Positions 21,595 through 31,019 of a stretch of 64,000 bases of DNA are shown here, one piece after another. Positions within the stretch are counted from its first letter, which is position 1; each line of letters opens with the position of its first letter. Source of the stretch: Myxococcaceae bacterium (GTDB lineage Bacteria; Myxococcota; Myxococcia; Myxococcales; Myxococcaceae); contig JAIBBR010000006.1 of assembly GCA_019694575.1 (NCBI GenBank), positions 1-64,000 on the forward strand. The letters are read 5' to 3'. The position numbers and the translations under genes were made by a program. A model generated the notes under the pieces. The model was not told the DNA's origin. It did no database searches and was given only the letters and a program-made list of their open reading frames with translations.

Positions 21595-23193
21595 ATGTTC
21601 CGTACCAGCACGCCCGCGACCGATCACGCCTTTTGGGATCGAACTGAAGAGCTGAAGTTGCTCGGTAGTGCAGTCGAACAGTTGCGCGCCGGCAACCCTC
21701 ATTGGATCGCGCTGCTCGGTGCGCGAAAGCTGGGAAAGACGAGCCTGCTACTTGAGTTGACCCGGCGTAACCCGCATCGCGACGTTCGATTCGTGGTGCT
21801 CGATTCTTTTGAAGAACAACCGTTGAGCTTTGAGATTTTTCGACGCCTCGCCCTGCGAACACTCGACGCCTTCTTTGCCGAGGAACTGGGGGTATCTCTC
21901 GAAGACCTCAGCCGTCGCCCCAACGAGTATCGGGCGACGATTGTCGAAGCAGCGAGATTTACCTCATTCGAACGCGCATTACGGGCGCAGGTGTTGGCTT
22001 TATGCGAAGCGCCGGCTGACCGACAGCTGGCAGAGTTCGCGCTCGGTTTATCTGAGCGACTCGCGACCGCTCTGAAGCTTCATTGCATCGTCGCTTGGGA
22101 TGAGTTTCAAGAATTGGCGAAGCTCGATTCGAGTCGAGGCAAAGGCGTGTTGCCACTGGCGCGGGCGATTTGGCAGAAGCACCGAAGGACCGCGTACTTC
22201 ATCTGCGGGTCGGAACGCACCTTGCTCGAGCGCTTGGTTCGGCACGAGAGTTCGCCCTTCTTTCAGCATTTCACCCTCGCCGAGCTTGGTCCGATGAAGC
22301 CTGACGACGCGGTGAAGCTTCTGACCCGAAATGCCCCCCCTGGCCGCTCGATTCCCCTCGCCGTGGCGACCAAGCTGGCCGCGGTGCTGGGCGGGCACCC
22401 TTTTTACCTGCAACTGTTCGGCGAAGTTCTTACCAGCAAAGAGCCACCTTACGATGAGGCCTTGGTACGGCAGGTGTTCTCAGAGGTGTTATTCAGCCGC
22501 ACCGGGCGGTTGGGGCTTTATTTCGAAAATGAATTCAATCAGGTGGTGGGCAACGCCGCCACGCTGGCGATGGTGCTCGAGGCACTCAGCGACGGGCCTG
22601 CGCGCACGACCGACGTGGCCAAGACTATCGGAGCGTCAACAGGGTCGACGTCTCGCTACCTGATGCGTCTGGGCGATGTCGTTCAGCACCAGGAAGACGG
22701 CCGCTATGCCTTGAGTGATGGGGCTTTCGGGTTGTGGCTGCGTTGGAGAAAACCAGGTGGCACGGTGGTACCGATGACGCTGGTCGGTGACGATGCCGAG
22801 CGCGAGGTGGCCAAGCGACTTGCTGAAATGGGCTTTGAGCTGGTTTACCAGTCTCGGGCTTCGCGAGGGGCCTTCGACCTGCTCGGGGTTCGCTCTGGGC
22901 TTCAGCTCGGAATTCAAGTCAAGCGCTCGACGTTGCCATTGCGCTTCAGCCGCGCGGCGTGGAATCGGTTGCACGCCGACGCCAAGCGTCTCGACTGGCA
23001 GTTCGTGGTGGCGGCGGTGTCGCCCGCTGGCCCAGTGACATTTCTCGACCCGGGCAAGGCCAAGGTCGGCCGGGCGGTGGCGCTTACCGCGGGGGCTCAG
23101 ATCAAGAACTTGCTGGCGTGGCTCGAGCGCAGGCGAATGAAGAACCGAATCGGGCACAAGGCCAGACGTGACGAGGCCCACCCCGGCGCCTAA
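21595..23193 (+). CDS. AAA+ ATPase fused to winged helix and PD-(D/E)XK nuclease-like domain
   Basis: 532 residues. An N-terminal STAND/archaeal-type (DUF234-like) ATPase has Walker A GARKLGKTS (42-50), Walker B with Asp169-Glu170 (IVAWDEF) and a sensor segment ICGSERTLLERL near 203. A winged-helix domain spans about 322-385. The C-terminal part (about 398-500) looks like a PD-(D/E)XK restriction-endonuclease fold, with Glu402, Asp428 (GAFDLLG) and Gln441-x-Lys443 (QVK) at the right spacing. The Q-x-K form is also known in Mrr-type nucleases. A Lys/Arg-rich tail follows. DNA cleavage under ATPase control is the inferred role, perhaps defence or mobile-element related. It overlaps the next start by 26 bases. 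Confidence 0.75.
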   Translation: MFRTSTPATDHAFWDRTEELKLLGSAVEQLRAGNPHWIALLGARKLGKTSLLLELTRRNPHRDVRFVVLDSFEEQPLSFEIFRRLALRTLDAFFAEELGVSLEDLSRRPNEYRATIVEAARFTSFERALRAQVLALCEAPADRQLAEFALGLSERLATALKLHCIVAWDEFQELAKLDSSRGKGVLPLARAIWQKHRRTAYFICGSERTLLERLVRHESSPFFQHFTLAELGPMKPDDAVKLLTRNAPPGRSIPLAVATKLAAVLGGHPFYLQLFGEVLTSKEPPYDEALVRQVFSEVLFSRTGRLGLYFENEFNQVVGNAATLAMVLEALSDGPARTTDVAKTIGASTGSTSRYLMRLGDVVQHQEDGRYALSDGAFGLWLRWRKPGGTVVPMTLVGDDAEREVAKRLAEMGFELVYQSRASRGAFDLLGVRSGLQLGIQVKRSTLPLRFSRAAWNRLHADAKRLDWQFVVAAVSPAGPVTFLDPGKAKVGRAVALTAGAQIKNLLAWLERRRMKNRIGHKARRDEAHPGA

Positions 23194-25579
23194 TCTCACC
23201 GCCCACGTGAAACACGCCCTGCATCTGATTCGCCTTCGCCTCGCGCGAACCTGGCAGCTGATGCTGCTGATTTCTATCGGAGCGACGGCCATCGCCATCT
23301 TCTGGTGGCAAAACAACTTTCTCGACATTCGCTCGCAAGAATGGGCGTCGTACGACAGCGGGCTGCAGCTCTTCATTCAGAAGCTGCCGGGCGACTTCGC
23401 TAAACCCAAAAAAAGCGACGACATCGTCATCATCGCCATCGACGACACCACCTTCGACGCCATCGACGCGTCAGACCGCACACAAGTCGACTGGAAAGCA
23501 CGCTATGGCTTGTGGCCGTACGACCGGCGCATTTGGGCCGACGTCATCGACTACCTGTCGAAAGCCGGCGCCCGCCTGCTGGTGATGGACATGGTGCTCG
23601 ACACCGCGCGCTCTGACGAAAGCGGCGATGTCGCGATGGCCGAAGCCATGCGCACCACGCGCTTTCCCGTGTACTTGGGTTTCAACGTCATTCCAAAAGG
23701 CGACACACTTTTTCCCGGCCTGCCGAAAGTAGAACCGAAAAACCGACCGATGCTTTCGCGCACTCCCGCGCCGGGGCCGTCTCTCGAAAAACCCGCTTCA
23801 CCGCCGCAAGATGATTCTGCCTTCGAAGAAGCCCCCGAAGTCGACTTCGCCGCGGCGATGAACGAACGCCGGCAGCTCGCGGCAGTGGCCTACGCATTTC
23901 CCCTCGAAATGAAAGGCGGTCTCGAAGCGCCAGTCTTCTCGTCGGCAGGCGAGCCCCGCTTTCCCAAACCGGCGGTCACTCCACTGCTCACGCCCACCTC
24001 AGGTTTCGGCAGCGTGGTGCCCGAATTCGACGACGACGGCAAAATGCGCCGCACCCGCTTCGTGTGGAGCGACGGCATCAACCCATACTTAAGCTTGCCG
24101 GTGGCCGCCGCGGCCGACTGGTTCAACGCCGAAACCGTCACCGTGCAGCCCGGCCTGCTCACGCTGGGCACCCACCCAGTGCCCATCAACCCTGACGGCT
24201 CGGCAGAAATCAACTACGGAGGAAAGCTCTTCGAACGCTTCCCCGTCATTTCTTTGGTCGACGTGCTGCGGCACCGTGGGGCCAACGACGGCTACGAAAA
24301 ATTCAAAGACAAATTTGTTCTTATCGGCGGCATTTCTTTGGGCACGGGAGACACCAAGGCCACTCCGCTCGATGAGCAAAGCCCGGGCGTCATCAAACAA
24401 GCCGCGGTGCTCGACAACCTTTTGCACCGCCGTTTCATTCTCGAGGCGCCCTTCTGGGTCTCGTGCCTGGTGGCGTTGGCGCTGGCTTTTTTGTCTATCA
24501 GCATCATTCTGGTGGTGCGCTCGCCCTTCGTAGAAATCGGCTGGCCCCTCTTGCTCTTCGTCACGTTCTTCGTGGTGCCAGGCTGGGTCACCGTCAGCAC
24601 CCACATTCACGTGCTTTCAGTCATGCCGTCACTGGCAGGCACCTTCGCTTCTGTGGCCGGCACCGTCTTCAACCACTTCTTCGCCGAGAAAGAGCGCGAA
24701 CGCTTAAAAGCCATGTTCGCCAGCTATATGGAAGCTGACCTGCTCGAGCAAATGGTCGAAGCGCGCGAGCTGCCCAAGCTCGACGGTGAAAAACACCACA
24801 TCACCGCGTTTTTTTCAGACATCAAAGGCTTCAGCACTTTCTCAGAGCGCTTTCGCGAAGACCCCAAGGGGTTGATGCGGCTGATGAACCGCTACCTTTC
24901 TACCGTCACGGCCGTACTCACCCACCACGGCGCCTGCATCGACAAATACATCGGCGACGCGGTGGTAGCGCTGTTCGGCGCCCCGGTGAAGCACGCCGAC
25001 CATGCGTTGCGCGCCTGCAAAGGCGCACTCGACGTGCAAAAGGCCATCGCCGCGTTGCGTGAGGCATTTCGCGCTGAAGGGTTGCCCGACGTCTACACCC
25101 GCATTGGCCTCAACACCGACGACTTGCTGGTGGGCAACATCGGCAGCGAGCAGTTGATGGACTACACGGCCATCGGCGACGGCATGAACCTGGCCGCCCG
25201 GCTCGAAGGCGCCAACAAGGCGTACGGCACGCTGATTATGATGGGCGAAAACACTTACCTGCAGGTGAAAGACGACGTCGAAGCGCGAGAGCTCGACACC
25301 GTGCGCGTGGCAGGCAAAACCCAAGCGGTGCGCGTGTATGAGCTGCTCGCCCTCAAAGGCCAACTGCCCGCGGCCAAGGCGCTCACCGTGGCCCACTATG
25401 CCCAGGCGCTGGCGCTTTACCGCGAACGGCAATTTGCTGAAGCCTCAAAAGTACTGCACAGGGTGCTCGACACCGACCCCGCCGACGGCCCGAGCCAACA
25501 TCTGCTTGAACGCTGCCAGTCACTGAGAGACGCTCTTCCCGACAGCACATGGGACAGCGTGACGTCGCTCGACAAATAA
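23168..25579 (+). CDS. CHASE2 domain adenylate/guanylate cyclase
   Basis: About 803 residues from GTG 23168 (AAGG six bases upstream). One N-terminal membrane segment (about 29-48) is followed by a CHASE2 sensory domain (about 55-415) and three more membrane segments (about 430-500). The class III cyclase domain covers about 540-715. Metal-binding aspartates are seen in FSDIKGFS and the following YIGDAVVALFG. Substrate-binding Lys/Asp appear as DKYIGD and MDYTAIGD. The transition-state Asn/Arg lie in GDGMNLAARL. The cyclase should therefore be active and, by the Lys/Asp pair, make cAMP. A short TPR-like tail ends the protein. Confidence 0.88.
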   Translation: MTRPTPAPNLTAHVKHALHLIRLRLARTWQLMLLISIGATAIAIFWWQNNFLDIRSQEWASYDSGLQLFIQKLPGDFAKPKKSDDIVIIAIDDTTFDAIDASDRTQVDWKARYGLWPYDRRIWADVIDYLSKAGARLLVMDMVLDTARSDESGDVAMAEAMRTTRFPVYLGFNVIPKGDTLFPGLPKVEPKNRPMLSRTPAPGPSLEKPASPPQDDSAFEEAPEVDFAAAMNERRQLAAVAYAFPLEMKGGLEAPVFSSAGEPRFPKPAVTPLLTPTSGFGSVVPEFDDDGKMRRTRFVWSDGINPYLSLPVAAAADWFNAETVTVQPGLLTLGTHPVPINPDGSAEINYGGKLFERFPVISLVDVLRHRGANDGYEKFKDKFVLIGGISLGTGDTKATPLDEQSPGVIKQAAVLDNLLHRRFILEAPFWVSCLVALALAFLSISIILVVRSPFVEIGWPLLLFVTFFVVPGWVTVSTHIHVLSVMPSLAGTFASVAGTVFNHFFAEKERERLKAMFASYMEADLLEQMVEARELPKLDGEKHHITAFFSDIKGFSTFSERFREDPKGLMRLMNRYLSTVTAVLTHHGACIDKYIGDAVVALFGAPVKHADHALRACKGALDVQKAIAALREAFRAEGLPDVYTRIGLNTDDLLVGNIGSEQLMDYTAIGDGMNLAARLEGANKAYGTLIMMGENTYLQVKDDVEARELDTVRVAGKTQAVRVYELLALKGQLPAAKALTVAHYAQALALYRERQFAEASKVLHRVLDTDPADGPSQHLLERCQSLRDALPDSTWDSVTSLDK

Positions 25580-25593
25580 CCAAAGGGGTATTC

Positions 25594-26067
25594 ATGCATC
25601 GAATCGGCAAGGGTTTGCTGGGCGCGGTTTGCCTTGTCTTCTTGGGCGGCGCGGCACCCAGCACATTACAGCTCTACATTCGCAACCGTGAAACACCGCT
25701 GCAGAAGCAGCCGACGCTCAGCTCACCGGTGTTGACGCGCATTCCTGCTGGAGCCACCGTCACCTGGTTGGGGGCAGGCACTCCCAAAAAAGACTTCGAC
25801 AAGGTGCGCTTCGGCACCCAAGAAGGCTTCGTGCCTCACGCCTCGCTGAGCACCCGCCCACCCAGCGCCGAAGTGAGCAAAACCGACGGCAAACCGATTA
25901 CCGCGCAGGCCTTTGCCAGCTCGGGCGCGGCCACCCGTGGGCTTTCAGAAGCGGGCTTGAAGTACGACAAGACGAAAAACCCTCATGACCCCAAGCTGGC
26001 CTTGAGCGTCATCAGCGTTGAGGGCATCGCCCGGCAAGTGCGCGAAGAAAAAGGAGGTGCGAAATGA
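25594..26067 (+). CDS. exported SH3-like domain protein
   Basis: 157 residues. ATG 25594 is preceded by AAAGGGG. A signal peptide runs to about residue 24 (GGAAPS). Residues about 25-90 show the SH3b pattern of cell-wall-binding proteins (YIRNRETPL, IPAGATVTWLG, RFGTQEGFVPHASL). The C-terminus is helical and charged. It overlaps the M48 protease gene by four bases (ATGA), so the two are translated together. A role in guiding the protease or cell-wall binding is inferred from this coupling. Confidence 0.75.
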   Translation: MHRIGKGLLGAVCLVFLGGAAPSTLQLYIRNRETPLQKQPTLSSPVLTRIPAGATVTWLGAGTPKKDFDKVRFGTQEGFVPHASLSTRPPSAEVSKTDGKPITAQAFASSGAATRGLSEAGLKYDKTKNPHDPKLALSVISVEGIARQVREEKGGAK

Positions 26068-27095
26068 ACGCCCGTTTCGCCGTCGCTTTTCCCCTCGTGC
26101 TTGGCGCTCTCAACTTGCCCTGTTTTCGCGCACCTGACGCCAACCTGGCCGCCGACGCCATTATCGAAGCGGGCAGCAAAGTGGCCGCGCGGGCACCCGA
26201 GTGCAAAAAACTCGCGAGCCAGCAAGTCGCTTTCGAAGAAGAAAAAGCCTTGGGCAGCGCGGTGGCGCTCAACCTCGCCAAAGCCGAAGGCGGCCTGTGG
26301 GTCGACGTACCGGCGGGCATCACCGACGTCGCGGCCTTCAACACCCAGGTGAACGGAGCCACCATGGGCAAGGTCACCTTCGCAGCCACTGGGCGCAACC
26401 AGTTAAACCGCTATTTGAACAAACTGGGCAAGCAACTCACTCAACATTCTACCCGGCCCGACATCAGCTGGACCTTCGGCGTCATCGACGCGCCGAGCGA
26501 AAACGCGCTCTCGACACCGGGCGGTTACATTTTCGTCAGCCGTGGGCTGCTCAAAAAATTGACCAGCGAAGCGCAATTGGCCGGGGTGTTGGCGCATGAA
26601 ATTGCCCACGTCACCGAGCGCCACAGCTTGAAGGCCTACAGCGATGCCAAGGCCAACCAGTGCTACATCGCGCTGGGCGTTTCTATCGGCGCGGGCGTGG
26701 CCAAAGACGCGGTGGCCGACCAAAACAGCTGGGTGAAGGTGCTCGACAACGCCGGCGCGCTCGACTTAGACGCCGCCGACGTCTCGGGTGAATTGATTGC
26801 CAAGCTGGTTGACGACACCGTGGGGCGGTTGCTCGCCTCGGGCCGCGCGCGTGAAGACGAGTTGGCGGCTGACCAGCTGGCCATCGAGCTCTTGGTGTTG
26901 GGCGGCTTCAACCCCAACGAGTACGTGAATTTGGTGAAGGGGCTGCCCGAGGGCGCGCCCATCGTCTCGCACCACCCCAAAAACCAAGAGCGCGTCGAAA
27001 CGATGCAGAAGCATTTAGAGCAATTCGCTGCCATGAAGCCCGACAGCTTGCCCAAAGGCGACGTGGCGGCGCTGAAAGCGGCGTCGACTCCGTAA
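26064..27095 (+). CDS. M48 family zinc metalloprotease
   Basis: 343 residues. Zinc-binding HEIAH is at about 179-183 (LAHEIAHVTERH), with the third ligand Glu in EDELAADQLA (about 268). This is the M48/BepA-LoiP type rather than the membrane-embedded HtpX. An N-terminal hydrophobic stretch (5-18) includes Cys19 (LNLPC), so a lipoprotein is possible. M48 enzymes degrade misfolded envelope proteins. A 270-residue body with no TPR follows. It is translationally coupled to the SH3-like gene. Confidence 0.88.
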   Translation: MNARFAVAFPLVLGALNLPCFRAPDANLAADAIIEAGSKVAARAPECKKLASQQVAFEEEKALGSAVALNLAKAEGGLWVDVPAGITDVAAFNTQVNGATMGKVTFAATGRNQLNRYLNKLGKQLTQHSTRPDISWTFGVIDAPSENALSTPGGYIFVSRGLLKKLTSEAQLAGVLAHEIAHVTERHSLKAYSDAKANQCYIALGVSIGAGVAKDAVADQNSWVKVLDNAGALDLDAADVSGELIAKLVDDTVGRLLASGRAREDELAADQLAIELLVLGGFNPNEYVNLVKGLPEGAPIVSHHPKNQERVETMQKHLEQFAAMKPDSLPKGDVAALKAASTP

Positions 27096-28166: not shown

Positions 28167-28525
28167 ATGGGCCTGGACTGGTTACTAGAAAGACGAAAAC
28201 CGAAGAAAGGCGCCGAAGCCAAGTTCAAGGCGCTGCAAGAAAAGATGCACGCGCTCGAAGCGCAAGACGCCCCCTCGTCAGAAGAAGCCCAAGCAGCGCT
28301 GCTGCTGCAACTCGACGCGCTTTCTCTGCGCGCTGAAGACGACATCGGTGCGCCGCGAATTGGCATCGACGACGACGCCACGCGGTGGTGCTTTTCGACG
28401 AAGGCCAGGCGTTAATGCCGCCGCGCTTCGAGGTGCACCGCTTTCCGACGCCGCGAGAGCTCGCTTCACTGAAAAAACAGCATGCCTTCAAGAACGACTC
28501 ACTCACGCTCTGCGGGTTCGGCTAA
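28167..28525 (+). pseudogene. frameshifted small gene, unknown function
   Basis: A reading frame begins at ATG 28167 (MGLDWLLERRKPKKGAEA) and runs to a stop at 28415. About residue 72 (near 28384) coding quality moves to the next frame, which continues as VVLFDEGQALMPPRFEVHRF and ends at TAA 28523-28525. Joining the two frames needs one extra base between 28382 and 28385. The two parts read as one soluble acidic protein of about 119 residues. A one-base deletion, or a sequencing error, breaks the gene. No family recognised. Confidence 0.65.
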
Positions 28526-28529
28526 AGCG

Positions 28530-29537
28530 TTATTGCCCGGCGATAAGCGCAATTAATTTTTCGAGCTCAACGCGGTGCGCGGTGGCGGGCGTCTGGCGCA
28601 GCGCTTCACGGGCGGCCGCCTCGGCCTCGGCCAGCCGCCCCAGCTTAAACAACGCCACCACGCGGTTGTAACGCGCGTCGTCAGCCAGGGGAGCGTCGGG
28701 GTACGCTTCGAGAAACCGCGCCCACGCGGCAACGGCTTGCGCGTAATCATGGGCCGTGAAGTGCGCGCGGTTGGCTTCTTCGAAGAGCATCAGCGCAGTC
28801 GGCGGTGAGTCGACCCGTGCCACGGCGCGAAAAGCCACTTTCGCGGGCAACTTGGCAGGCGCTGGCGCAGGTGTGACTTCAATAGCCACTTCTTTTTCGA
28901 CGTCAGGCACGAAGGTGTCGGTGTGAATGCGCGGCAACACCGGGGCCGCCGGCTTCGGCTTCGAATCGACAAAGTAGCGGTATGCCGCGTACCCGGCGGT
29001 CATCAGCAACGCCAAGGCGGCGAGAATCAGCCAGCGTTGCTCGAGCAAACTCTTCAACCGCTTGCGGGCATGAAACGCACGGCTGCGCACAGTGGCTTCG
29101 GGCTGGCCCAGCAAGCGGCTGACCTCGGCGGCGCTGGCTCCGTCGTTGAGCTGCAAAATCAGCGCGCGCTGTTCTGGGTTGAGCTGGCCAATGGCCCACG
29201 CCAAGTCAGCTTCGATTTGCTGACGCTCGAAGTGCACCTCGGGGCTCACGTCGAAGAGGGGTACGGGCTCAGCGGCCACCGCTTCTTCCAACCGCTGGGT
29301 GCGCTGTCGCCTGCGGGCGTGGTGGCGCGCCACGTTGGCGCCGACTCCGAGCACGAAGAGCCGCTCGTCAGCCACGTCTTTCGCTTTGCCACGCGCGCGT
29401 ACCAACACTTCATAAGTGCTGGCGACAATGTCATCGACGTCGACGCGGTTGTGCACCAAGCGGCCGACGAAGACACGCAAGTCGCGCTGGTGACGGGCCC
29501 ACGCTTGCGCAGCCCAAGTGGTGGCATCGTCACGCAT
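28530..29537 (-). CDS. membrane-anchored ECF-type sigma factor with TPR-like domain
   Basis: 335 residues. The order is sigma-2 region (about 10-80), sigma-4 region with helix-turn-helix (about 110-165, GQPEATVRSRAFHARKRLK), then one membrane segment (169-190), a Pro-rich linker and a TPR-like region (about 250-335). ECF sigma factors normally are soluble. Here the promoter-recognition part would be tethered at the inner face of the cytoplasmic membrane, with a periplasmic tail. It starts three bases after the stop of the upstream beta-barrel gene and should be co-transcribed with it. No separate anti-sigma gene is visible. Confidence 0.8.
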   Translation of the reverse strand: MRDDATTWAAQAWARHQRDLRVFVGRLVHNRVDVDDIVASTYEVLVRARGKAKDVADERLFVLGVGANVARHHARRRQRTQRLEEAVAAEPVPLFDVSPEVHFERQQIEADLAWAIGQLNPEQRALILQLNDGASAAEVSRLLGQPEATVRSRAFHARKRLKSLLEQRWLILAALALLMTAGYAAYRYFVDSKPKPAAPVLPRIHTDTFVPDVEKEVAIEVTPAPAPAKLPAKVAFRAVARVDSPPTALMLFEEANRAHFTAHDYAQAVAAWARFLEAYPDAPLADDARYNRVVALFKLGRLAEAEAAAREALRQTPATAHRVELEKLIALIAGQ

Positions 29538-29540
29538 CGG

Positions 29541-30389
29541 TCAAAACCCGTAGCCTGCGCCCACGCTGCCGTAGAGAAGGCCCCGGGGCAAATTGCTCGC
29601 GTCGAGGGCCAAGGTGAAGCCGCAACCCAGCTGCACATCGAGCTCAGAAGCCACTGCCACCGCAATCACCACGCGGGGGCGAAAAGCGAAGAGCACTTGA
29701 AAGTTGTCGGAGTCGCCCACCGAAGGTTCGCGCATGAAGAGCGGCCCCGCCCCCACGAAGAGGCCAAGCCGCAATGGCCCTGGGCCTCCATAAATGCCGG
29801 CCTCGGGAAACAATTGAAAGCGCGACGACGGCTTGTTGGTTTCGATGCCCATCGAATAGCTCACCGCCAAACCGGCCCTCACCAGGCCAAAGCGCCGTTG
29901 CCCTTGCAGCTCGAGGCCGCTCAACAACAGCCCCATGGCGGTGAGGCCGAGCGCGCCCGAGCCATTCACCCACCAAGCGGGAACTGCAGCGGGTTTCGTT
30001 TCTTCGACCGGCGGCAGACTGGGCGCGGGTGCGGCCACGGCCGGTAGCCCTCGCAAGTGCGCTTCGAGTTGCGCTCGCAAAAGGCCCGCCGCCAGCAACA
30101 CGCTTTCGCGCACCACCTGGGTGTTGCCGGTACGGGTGAGCAACCGTTTCTGCTCGTGACTGCCGCGCGCCCGCACGGTGAGAGTTACCACGCCTACGTC
30201 CACCACGATGGCCACTTGGTCGCATTGCGGCGCGCCTTCCAGCACCACTTCGCGTGCCAACTCAGCGCTTAGCGCTTGGCGAAATTCAGCGGCGCTTAAC
30301 GTACTGCCGTCGAGCACCGACGCCTCGAGCTGCACGGGGCAGTCAGCTCTCTGCGCAGACAATGCTGTCAGTACCAACCACGCAATCAT
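29541..30389 (-). CDS. probable outer-membrane beta-barrel protein
   Basis: 282 residues. An N-terminal signal peptide (to about ALSA) is followed by a periplasmic alpha/beta region (about 15-115). A Pro-rich linker comes next. A C-terminal half made of alternating Gly/aromatic/hydrophobic strands (about 145-282) ends with a terminal Phe (GAGYGF), the usual mark of an outer-membrane barrel. It is the first gene of a pair with the membrane-tethered sigma factor, separated by three bases. It divides a 110-bp region with the plus-strand lipoprotein gene. Function inferred only. Confidence 0.7.
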   Translation of the reverse strand: MIAWLVLTALSAQRADCPVQLEASVLDGSTLSAAEFRQALSAELAREVVLEGAPQCDQVAIVVDVGVVTLTVRARGSHEQKRLLTRTGNTQVVRESVLLAAGLLRAQLEAHLRGLPAVAAPAPSLPPVEETKPAAVPAWWVNGSGALGLTAMGLLLSGLELQGQRRFGLVRAGLAVSYSMGIETNKPSSRFQLFPEAGIYGGPGPLRLGLFVGAGPLFMREPSVGDSDNFQVLFAFRPRVVIAVAVASELDVQLGCGFTLALDASNLPRGLLYGSVGAGYGF

Positions 30390-30500
30390 GAGGCGGTGGG
30401 TATCACGGCGTGTGAAGGGAGCAAAAGTGCACCCCTCGTTAAACGGTTTGACCGTCGCTGGGCATTCACAGGTCAGTACTCATTTCTCGAAGGAGTTTGC

Positions 30501-31019
30501 ATGTTTCGCAAGATTTGCGCTGTCGCTCTTATTCTCACCGCCTGTGGCGACCCTTCGATGGGCACTGACGGAGGGGTGGACGCTGGCGTCGATGCCGGGC
30601 CCATGGCGTTGACGGCCTCGGGAACCGCCACCGGTACTTACGGCTTCACGGTGAAGACAGCCTTCGCGGTTTCACCAGACGGCGGCGCCCCGGTGGCCGT
30701 CTTTTTGTACGACGCGGTGCTGCCTTGCCCTGCACGGTTCGATGAAGCACCTTCAGTAGAAGGGCAGGGGTTATTGATGCAGCAAAACAGTGGCACGTTC
30801 GCACTGGGCACTTATGCCGCACCGAACCAACTCTTCGTTCTCCGTGGGCACTTTCGGCCCGACGCCAGCTTTCCCGAACCGGTGGGCGCCGACAGCCTGA
30901 CGGGCACAGTCACCGTCACCTCTGTCAACCGGGGCGTGGTGGGCACCTACCAATTCACCAACAGCGACGGTGGCACCCTGTCAGGGCAATTCAGCGCGCC
31001 CACCTGCGGCGCACCTTAA
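30501..31019 (+). CDS. small secreted lipoprotein, unknown function
   Basis: 172 residues. ATG 30501 follows an excellent ribosome-binding site (AAGGAG). A lipoprotein signal ends at LTAC, then an Asp-Gly-Gly/Asp-Ala-Gly stalk (about 18-33), and a beta-rich domain (about 35-172). It has a late Cys (TCGAP) that could pair with an internal Cys near 72. The DAG/DGG stalk is a feature of many myxobacterial surface lipoproteins. Its promoter region is shared with the divergent barrel-sigma pair. No family recognised. Confidence 0.65.
   Translation: MFRKICAVALILTACGDPSMGTDGGVDAGVDAGPMALTASGTATGTYGFTVKTAFAVSPDGGAPVAVFLYDAVLPCPARFDEAPSVEGQGLLMQQNSGTFALGTYAAPNQLFVLRGHFRPDASFPEPVGADSLTGTVTVTSVNRGVVGTYQFTNSDGGTLSGQFSAPTCGAP

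Follow-up and report, generated by a model that had tools for sequence, protein, structure and literature searches.

The hybrid gene and its barrel-like partner

The window, by which we mean the whole stretch of 64,000 nucleotides that was analyzed, carries on its reverse strand two adjacent genes, the first for a barrel-like protein and the second for a sigma factor with a predicted membrane helix and a TPR tail in the same polypeptide. The sigma ORF (29537..28530, minus strand, 335 aa) begins 3 bp past the end of the barrel-like ORF, and the ORF calls bear out both the coordinates and the spacing given in the sequence-only reading from which this analysis started. In detail, the following features were assigned:

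28530..29537, minus strand: putative sigma/anti-sigma hybrid gene, 335 aa (domain profiles, AlphaFold2 (AF2), codon-position GC)
29274..29531, minus strand: sigma2 domain, residues 3–88 (AF2; TIGR02937 over residues 10–164)
29043..29243, minus strand: sigma4 domain, residues 99–165 (Pfam Sigma70_r4_2, E 3.9e-8; AF2)
28977..29033, minus strand: predicted membrane helix, residues 169–187, running on from the last sigma4 helix (hydropathy; AF2 helix 147–192; alignment with the membrane segment of the triad TM-TPR proteins described below)
28806..28961, minus strand: Pro-rich linker, mostly disordered, residues 193–244 (low pLDDT, below 50 at 207–249)
28533..28805, minus strand: TPR tail, residues 245–335 (TPR_16, E 3.9e-8; window-free triad TM-TPR profile, E 2.7e-12)
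29541..30389, minus strand: barrel-like partner gene, ORF of 282 aa with a signal-like N terminus, a periplasmic-type N domain, a Pro-rich linker and a predicted C-terminal beta-barrel
30054..30332, minus strand: N domain of the barrel protein, residues 20–112, beta-alpha-beta-beta-beta-alpha (AF2 at low confidence; aligned with the triad barrels)
29547..29975, minus strand: predicted barrel strands, residues 139–281 (AF2 strands; Foldseek)

The hybrid is an ECF sigma factor, as it possesses sigma2 and sigma4 without sigma3 and exceeds the cut-off of the ECF profile (TIGR02937, 51.4 bits versus 42.9, residues 10–164). Pfam region 4 is found above its cut-off (E 3.9e-8) and region 2 alone stays below it (16.7 versus 24 bits). 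In the AlphaFold2 model both domains mostly reach a pLDDT of about 90 or higher, and a Foldseek search with this model returned AlgU, SigE and E. coli sigmaE, so that the sigma-2 and sigma-4 domains named earlier hold with the sole reservation of the Pfam region 2 score. The TPR-like tail was likewise confirmed as part of the same polypeptide by TPR_16 (E 3.9e-8, residues 257–317), by the triad profile and by the AF2 model, which shows TPR helices at 245–335; according to domain profiles it resembles the repeats of YfiO/BamD and YbgF. PF04773, the FecR-type periplasmic domain, gave no match in the hybrid protein. The codon-position GC fits a single coding frame across the whole ORF; this signal is least pronounced in the linker and distinct where the sigma factor joins the membrane segment. 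No plausible same-strand ORF follows the hybrid, in agreement with the claim that a separate anti-sigma gene is missing.

The hydropathy of the membrane segment is moderate: residues 169–186 have a Kyte-Doolittle mean of 1.76, and an 18-mer of equal strength occurs in 20% of the ORFs of the fetched loci. Basic residues flank the segment on the sigma side, the Pro-rich linker follows it, and AF2 draws a single helix (147–192) from the end of sigma4 through the hydrophobic residues 169–187. The segment and the part following it can also be aligned with the membrane segment and tail of unfused TM-TPR proteins from the same genome, and this homology is a stronger argument than hydropathy. Taken together, hydropathy, model and alignment predict one membrane helix at residues 169–187, and the membrane topology of the hybrid is likewise a prediction.

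The partner protein shows a signal-like start, long strands and a C-terminal Phe. Its AF2 model is of low confidence (pLDDT 51), with strands at 139–152, 156–169, 174–187, 243–252, 256–265 and 272–281. A Foldseek search with this weak model yielded nothing significant, with OmpX and designed barrels among the top matches, and neither Pfam nor NCBIfam gave a match. Regarding the earlier claim of an upstream outer-membrane barrel with a periplasmic domain, the 3-bp gap and the homology to other barrel genes (see below) stand, and the N domain and the barrel topology are predictions from a low-confidence model of a protein that has no Pfam or NCBIfam match.

Unfused triads in this genome and in other Myxococcota

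The same genome contains 14 unfused triads of a barrel gene, an ECF sigma factor gene and a TM-TPR gene (loci L088–L098, L100, L101 and L119, on contigs C22, C96 twice, C200, C81, C141, C192, C2, C90, C72, C48, C54, C176 and C115), counted from the loci of tail-profile matches together with further sigma loci. The first gene encodes a secreted protein that combines a small N domain with a predicted barrel, the second the ECF sigma factor and the third the TM-TPR protein; neighboring genes usually overlap by a few bases or nearly touch. A profile of three TM-TPR tails matches 12 places in the genome, each of which adjoins a region-4 sigma match. About 50 region-4 matches above the Pfam cut-off are present in this genome of 5.3 Mb, and the triads hold over a quarter of its ECF-like sigma factors. 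As a FecR domain is found in some TM-TPR proteins (3 of the 16 scanned), we group them with the FecR-type regulators.

Within this genome, the hybrid of the window is the sole instance of a merged second and third triad gene. A TM-TPR profile built from 13 triads, with the window left out, recognizes the hybrid over residues 132–329 (45.9 bits, E 2.7e-12, search space set to 5000), and when all 367 ORFs from the own-genome loci are scored, no ORF other than those of the triads and the hybrid passes. For the triad barrels, which measure about 275–365 aa, a Pfam scan gave no match and no TonB-receptor or plug domain was recognized. A search for a shared ECF-type promoter motif upstream of the 14 barrel genes performed no better than shuffles.

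The partner gene of the window is, judged by its sequence, homologous to the triad barrel genes. A profile of 77 barrels from other loci matches residues 1–262 of the protein with 36.0 bits (E 1.2e-9, Z=5000); because of the high composition bias in these sequences a shuffle control was run, in which the maximum over 2000 shuffles was 7.9 bits. An earlier barrel profile had placed the protein only marginally (E 0.012), with an hhalign score above that of shuffles, and its identity to the triad barrels amounts to 17–21%. The GTDB pattern scan with the barrel protein returned nothing. The sole foreign match in the search of the order (G093, E 9e-4) was rejected as unrelated, being from a cytochrome c biogenesis-like locus.

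Profile matches and gene order place copies of this parent system of three genes in many Myxococcota. The TM-TPR model finds members at E<=1e-12 in at least 62 of 195 Myxococcota genomes, which is a lower bound as 13 candidates per genome were scored. Among 110 loci (L139–L248, including a few overlaps or repeats) a separate sigma ORF lies just upstream of the TM-TPR gene in 105, often with a 4-bp overlap, and for two of the remaining five the match begins close to the border of the sequence that was fetched. A recognized barrel gene is present in 80 of the 102 loci that have at least 500 bp upstream of the sigma gene; the other 22 are triad-like without one.

The fusion itself was found in one genome only, a metagenome-type assembly. 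None of the 110 loci shows a fusion of sigma factor and regulator, and full-length relatives of the hybrid were absent at E<=1e-25 from the order and at E<=1e-13 from the 195 genomes of the phylum; weaker matches reach no more than slightly beyond the sigma domain. The two tail matches spanning both TM and TPR (in genomes G132 and G194, contigs C62 and C58) belong to TM-TPR proteins whose sigma factor is encoded by a gene of its own. A GTDB-wide pattern scan with the hybrid protein gave no fused relative and a plasmid search gave nothing. As judged from the 195 Myxococcota genomes and the GTDB-wide pattern scan, the specific pairing of hybrid and barrel is not conserved.

Origin of the fusion and comparison with known systems

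Most likely, to go by the alignments, the hybrid is an ECF sigma factor fused to the TM-TPR (FecR-like) regulator that normally comes next in the triad, with loss of the N-terminal cytosolic segment of the regulator. All 14 triad regulators of the genome carry 48–91 residues before their TM; in the hybrid, sigma4 ends at about residue 165 and the TM starts at 169, so that this whole segment is absent. Since the entire segment is gone, the event goes beyond a mere frameshift between overlapping genes. The suggestion of a barrel/anti-sigma/sigma pathway condensed into one protein is well supported: its three-gene parent occurs in 14 copies in this genome and also elsewhere in the phylum, and the two adjacent genes of the window are homologous to its parts.

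In the best sigma tree the window sigma lies outside the main triad sigma clade; a joint clade was not rejected (p-AU 0.48). A joint alignment of sigma and TM-TPR sequences misplaced the TM-TPR rows and was excluded from the results. The sigma factors C2a, C125 and C192a, which are near the window sigma in the tree, were considered as fused relatives and discarded as they have no TM-TPR fusion. C125 (L105) is an ECF sigma factor with a 145-aa extension that has no TM and by eye appears SnoaL-like, as in ECF41.

The fused layout is not without precedent. Fused sigma/anti-sigma proteins already known include IutY, ECF48, ECF52, ECF53, ECF36 and some ECF270 members (PMC8999054), and in Pseudomonas putida the hybrid IutY has an outer-membrane receptor as its partner (PMC5411451). 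IutY consists of sigma2 (8–84), sigma4 (100–164), a single TM and a periplasmic FecR-like part (PMC9249621). It has been shown experimentally that aerobactin at IutA leads to cleavage of IutY by Prc and RseP and to release of the sigma factor (PMC5411451). IutY is described as the only hybrid with a characterized proteolytic activation (PMC8999054).

IutY/IutA (ECF243) and the gene pair of the window, the latter by prediction, share one polypeptide with sigma2, sigma4, a single TM right after sigma4 and a periplasmic regulatory part. In both, a separate anti-sigma factor is absent and the gene of the outer-membrane partner adjoins. The domain limits are nearly equal, with sigma2 at 8–84 versus 3–88 and sigma4 at 100–164 versus 99–165 in IutY and the hybrid of the window, respectively. 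In IutY, however, the periplasmic domain is of the FecR type and the partner is a TonB-dependent receptor, whereas the hybrid of the window has a TPR tail without a FecR match and, as partner, a 282-aa barrel-like protein of no known family.

The FecA-FecR-FecI system has the same three roles and a similar gene neighborhood as the unfused triads, some of whose regulators carry a FecR domain; it differs in that triad barrels are of about 275–365 aa without a Pfam match, that triad tails are mostly TPR, and that sigma factor and regulator are fused in the window. ECF48, ECF52, ECF53, ECF36 and some ECF270 proteins (Anaeromyxobacter) also join a sigma factor to membrane or regulatory extensions, with proteolytic activation having been proposed (PMC8999054), but ECF48, ECF52 and ECF53 are actinobacterial, contain zinc-finger parts (one with a carbohydrate-binding domain) and have no outer-membrane partner described. 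ECF42 shares the C-terminal TPR extension on an ECF sigma factor, but no TM has been described for it and its usual neighbor is a YCII-related protein, in contrast to the predicted TM (169–187) and the barrel neighbor of the window. What would be new in the hybrid compared to known fusions is thus a different tail, a different outer-membrane partner and a different three-gene parent.

A literature search, the coverage of which did not extend to the main ECF classification paper, found no description of barrel/sigma/TM-TPR triads, and the triad sigma groups may already have ECF numbers. Tentatively, and somewhat short of what we would call probable, the triads may constitute a phylum-wide, undescribed class of cell-surface signaling in which a small non-TonB barrel that has a periplasmic domain acts on a TPR (not mainly FecR) regulator and this on an ECF sigma factor; the hybrid of the window would then be a natural one-component form whose origin is independent of that of IutY and in which the cytosolic anti-sigma segment was lost as it was there. 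Sigma/anti-sigma hybrids are rare. A second hybrid with the same cut-down design from another parent would suggest that a tethered sigma factor can do without the cytosolic anti-sigma segment, and, if true, the one-component form would show that tethering and a periplasmic tail suffice for control. The parent triads, of which one genome has 14 and which occur in many Myxococcota, would equip these bacteria with numerous pairs of a barrel sensor and a sigma factor.

Possible modes of control

The IutY-like layout, together with the activation of IutY by Prc and RseP, led us to propose tethering, sensing of the barrel partner by the periplasmic TPR tail and proteolytic release, which is the best explanation and, in our estimation, narrowly a probable one. 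In the resting state the TM helix, prolonging the last helix of sigma4, would keep the sigma domain tied to the inner membrane, away from RNA polymerase or promoters, while the TPR tail would monitor the condition of the secreted, barrel-forming protein that the same operon encodes. If this partner changed, the tail would become exposed to a periplasmic protease of the Prc/CtpA type, upon which the RseP site-2 protease would free the sigma domain for transcription of its regulon. Homologs of RseP and Prc are present in this genome above curated cut-offs. Given the likeness to YfiO/BamD and YbgF repeats, one might speculate that the tail recognizes the end of an unassembled barrel. Contact between tail and barrel, proteolytic release and the regulon are what we infer here, and the barrel topology of the partner is predicted.

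An unlikely alternative, though one that deserves consideration, retains the hybrid and its tether and regards the barrel as a mere co-expressed output, either target or maturation partner, with the TPR tail sensing something else in the periplasm. The high divergence of the barrels between triads (17–21% identity to that of the window) would also be expected of varied cargo, and a barrel was not recognized in 22 of 102 triad-like loci. However, the barrel gene comes first in most triads, is only 3 bp away from the hybrid here and belongs to a family common to the triads, and in FecAIR and IutA/IutY it is the outer-membrane partner that acts as sensor (PMC9249621, PMC5411451).

That the tethered sigma factor acts at the membrane without proteolysis, as ToxR or CadC do, appears rather improbable, because a sigma factor has to travel with RNA polymerase and because the architecturally equivalent IutY requires cleavage by RseP (PMC5411451); still, a cleavage site is not recognizable from the sequence, and the continuous helix of sigma4 and TM could carry a conformational signal.

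We consider it quite improbable that an ordinary triad has given rise to the hybrid through an assembly or sequencing artefact or as a decaying gene pair. Such an origin would fit the restriction to one genome, the sub-threshold Pfam sigma2 score and a convergent neighbor (28167–28527) that looks frameshifted, but the coding pattern of codon-position GC persists through the entire ORF including the junction, sigma2 and sigma4 model well, and one indel cannot delete the 48–91-residue N-terminal segment of the regulator. Finally, a soluble, TPR-extended sigma factor of the ECF42 type, in which the moderately hydrophobic segment is no membrane helix, is highly improbable despite the C-terminal TPR extensions of ECF42 (PMC8999054), as the segment has a basic flank on the sigma side and a Pro-rich linker after it and aligns with the TM of the unfused proteins, and as ECF42 extensions are TPR-rich, of about 200 residues and have no TM described. 

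The surroundings of the gene pair permit some further observations. The small convergent gene at 28167–28527 (plus strand) appears frameshifted near 28380, with the first frame stopping at 28415 and the second running to a stop just before 28530; a search of 79 genomes of the order found no relatives of it. A perfect inverted repeat, ACGGT-TTG-ACCGT (30443–30455), separates the barrel gene from a divergent lipoprotein gene and is not common to the other triads. The predicted lipoprotein (30501–31019, plus strand, 172 aa) shares this intergenic region with the barrel gene and is a candidate target; it has no Pfam match, and as a conserved target gene it was dismissed for lack of relatives in the fetched loci. 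A predicted secreted M48 metallopeptidase is encoded near the pair of barrel and hybrid genes at 26064–27095 (plus strand); peptidases of the M48 type can act in envelope quality control. Further away, at 23168–25579 (plus strand), lies a gene for a membrane sensor that combines CHASE2 with an adenylate/guanylate cyclase.
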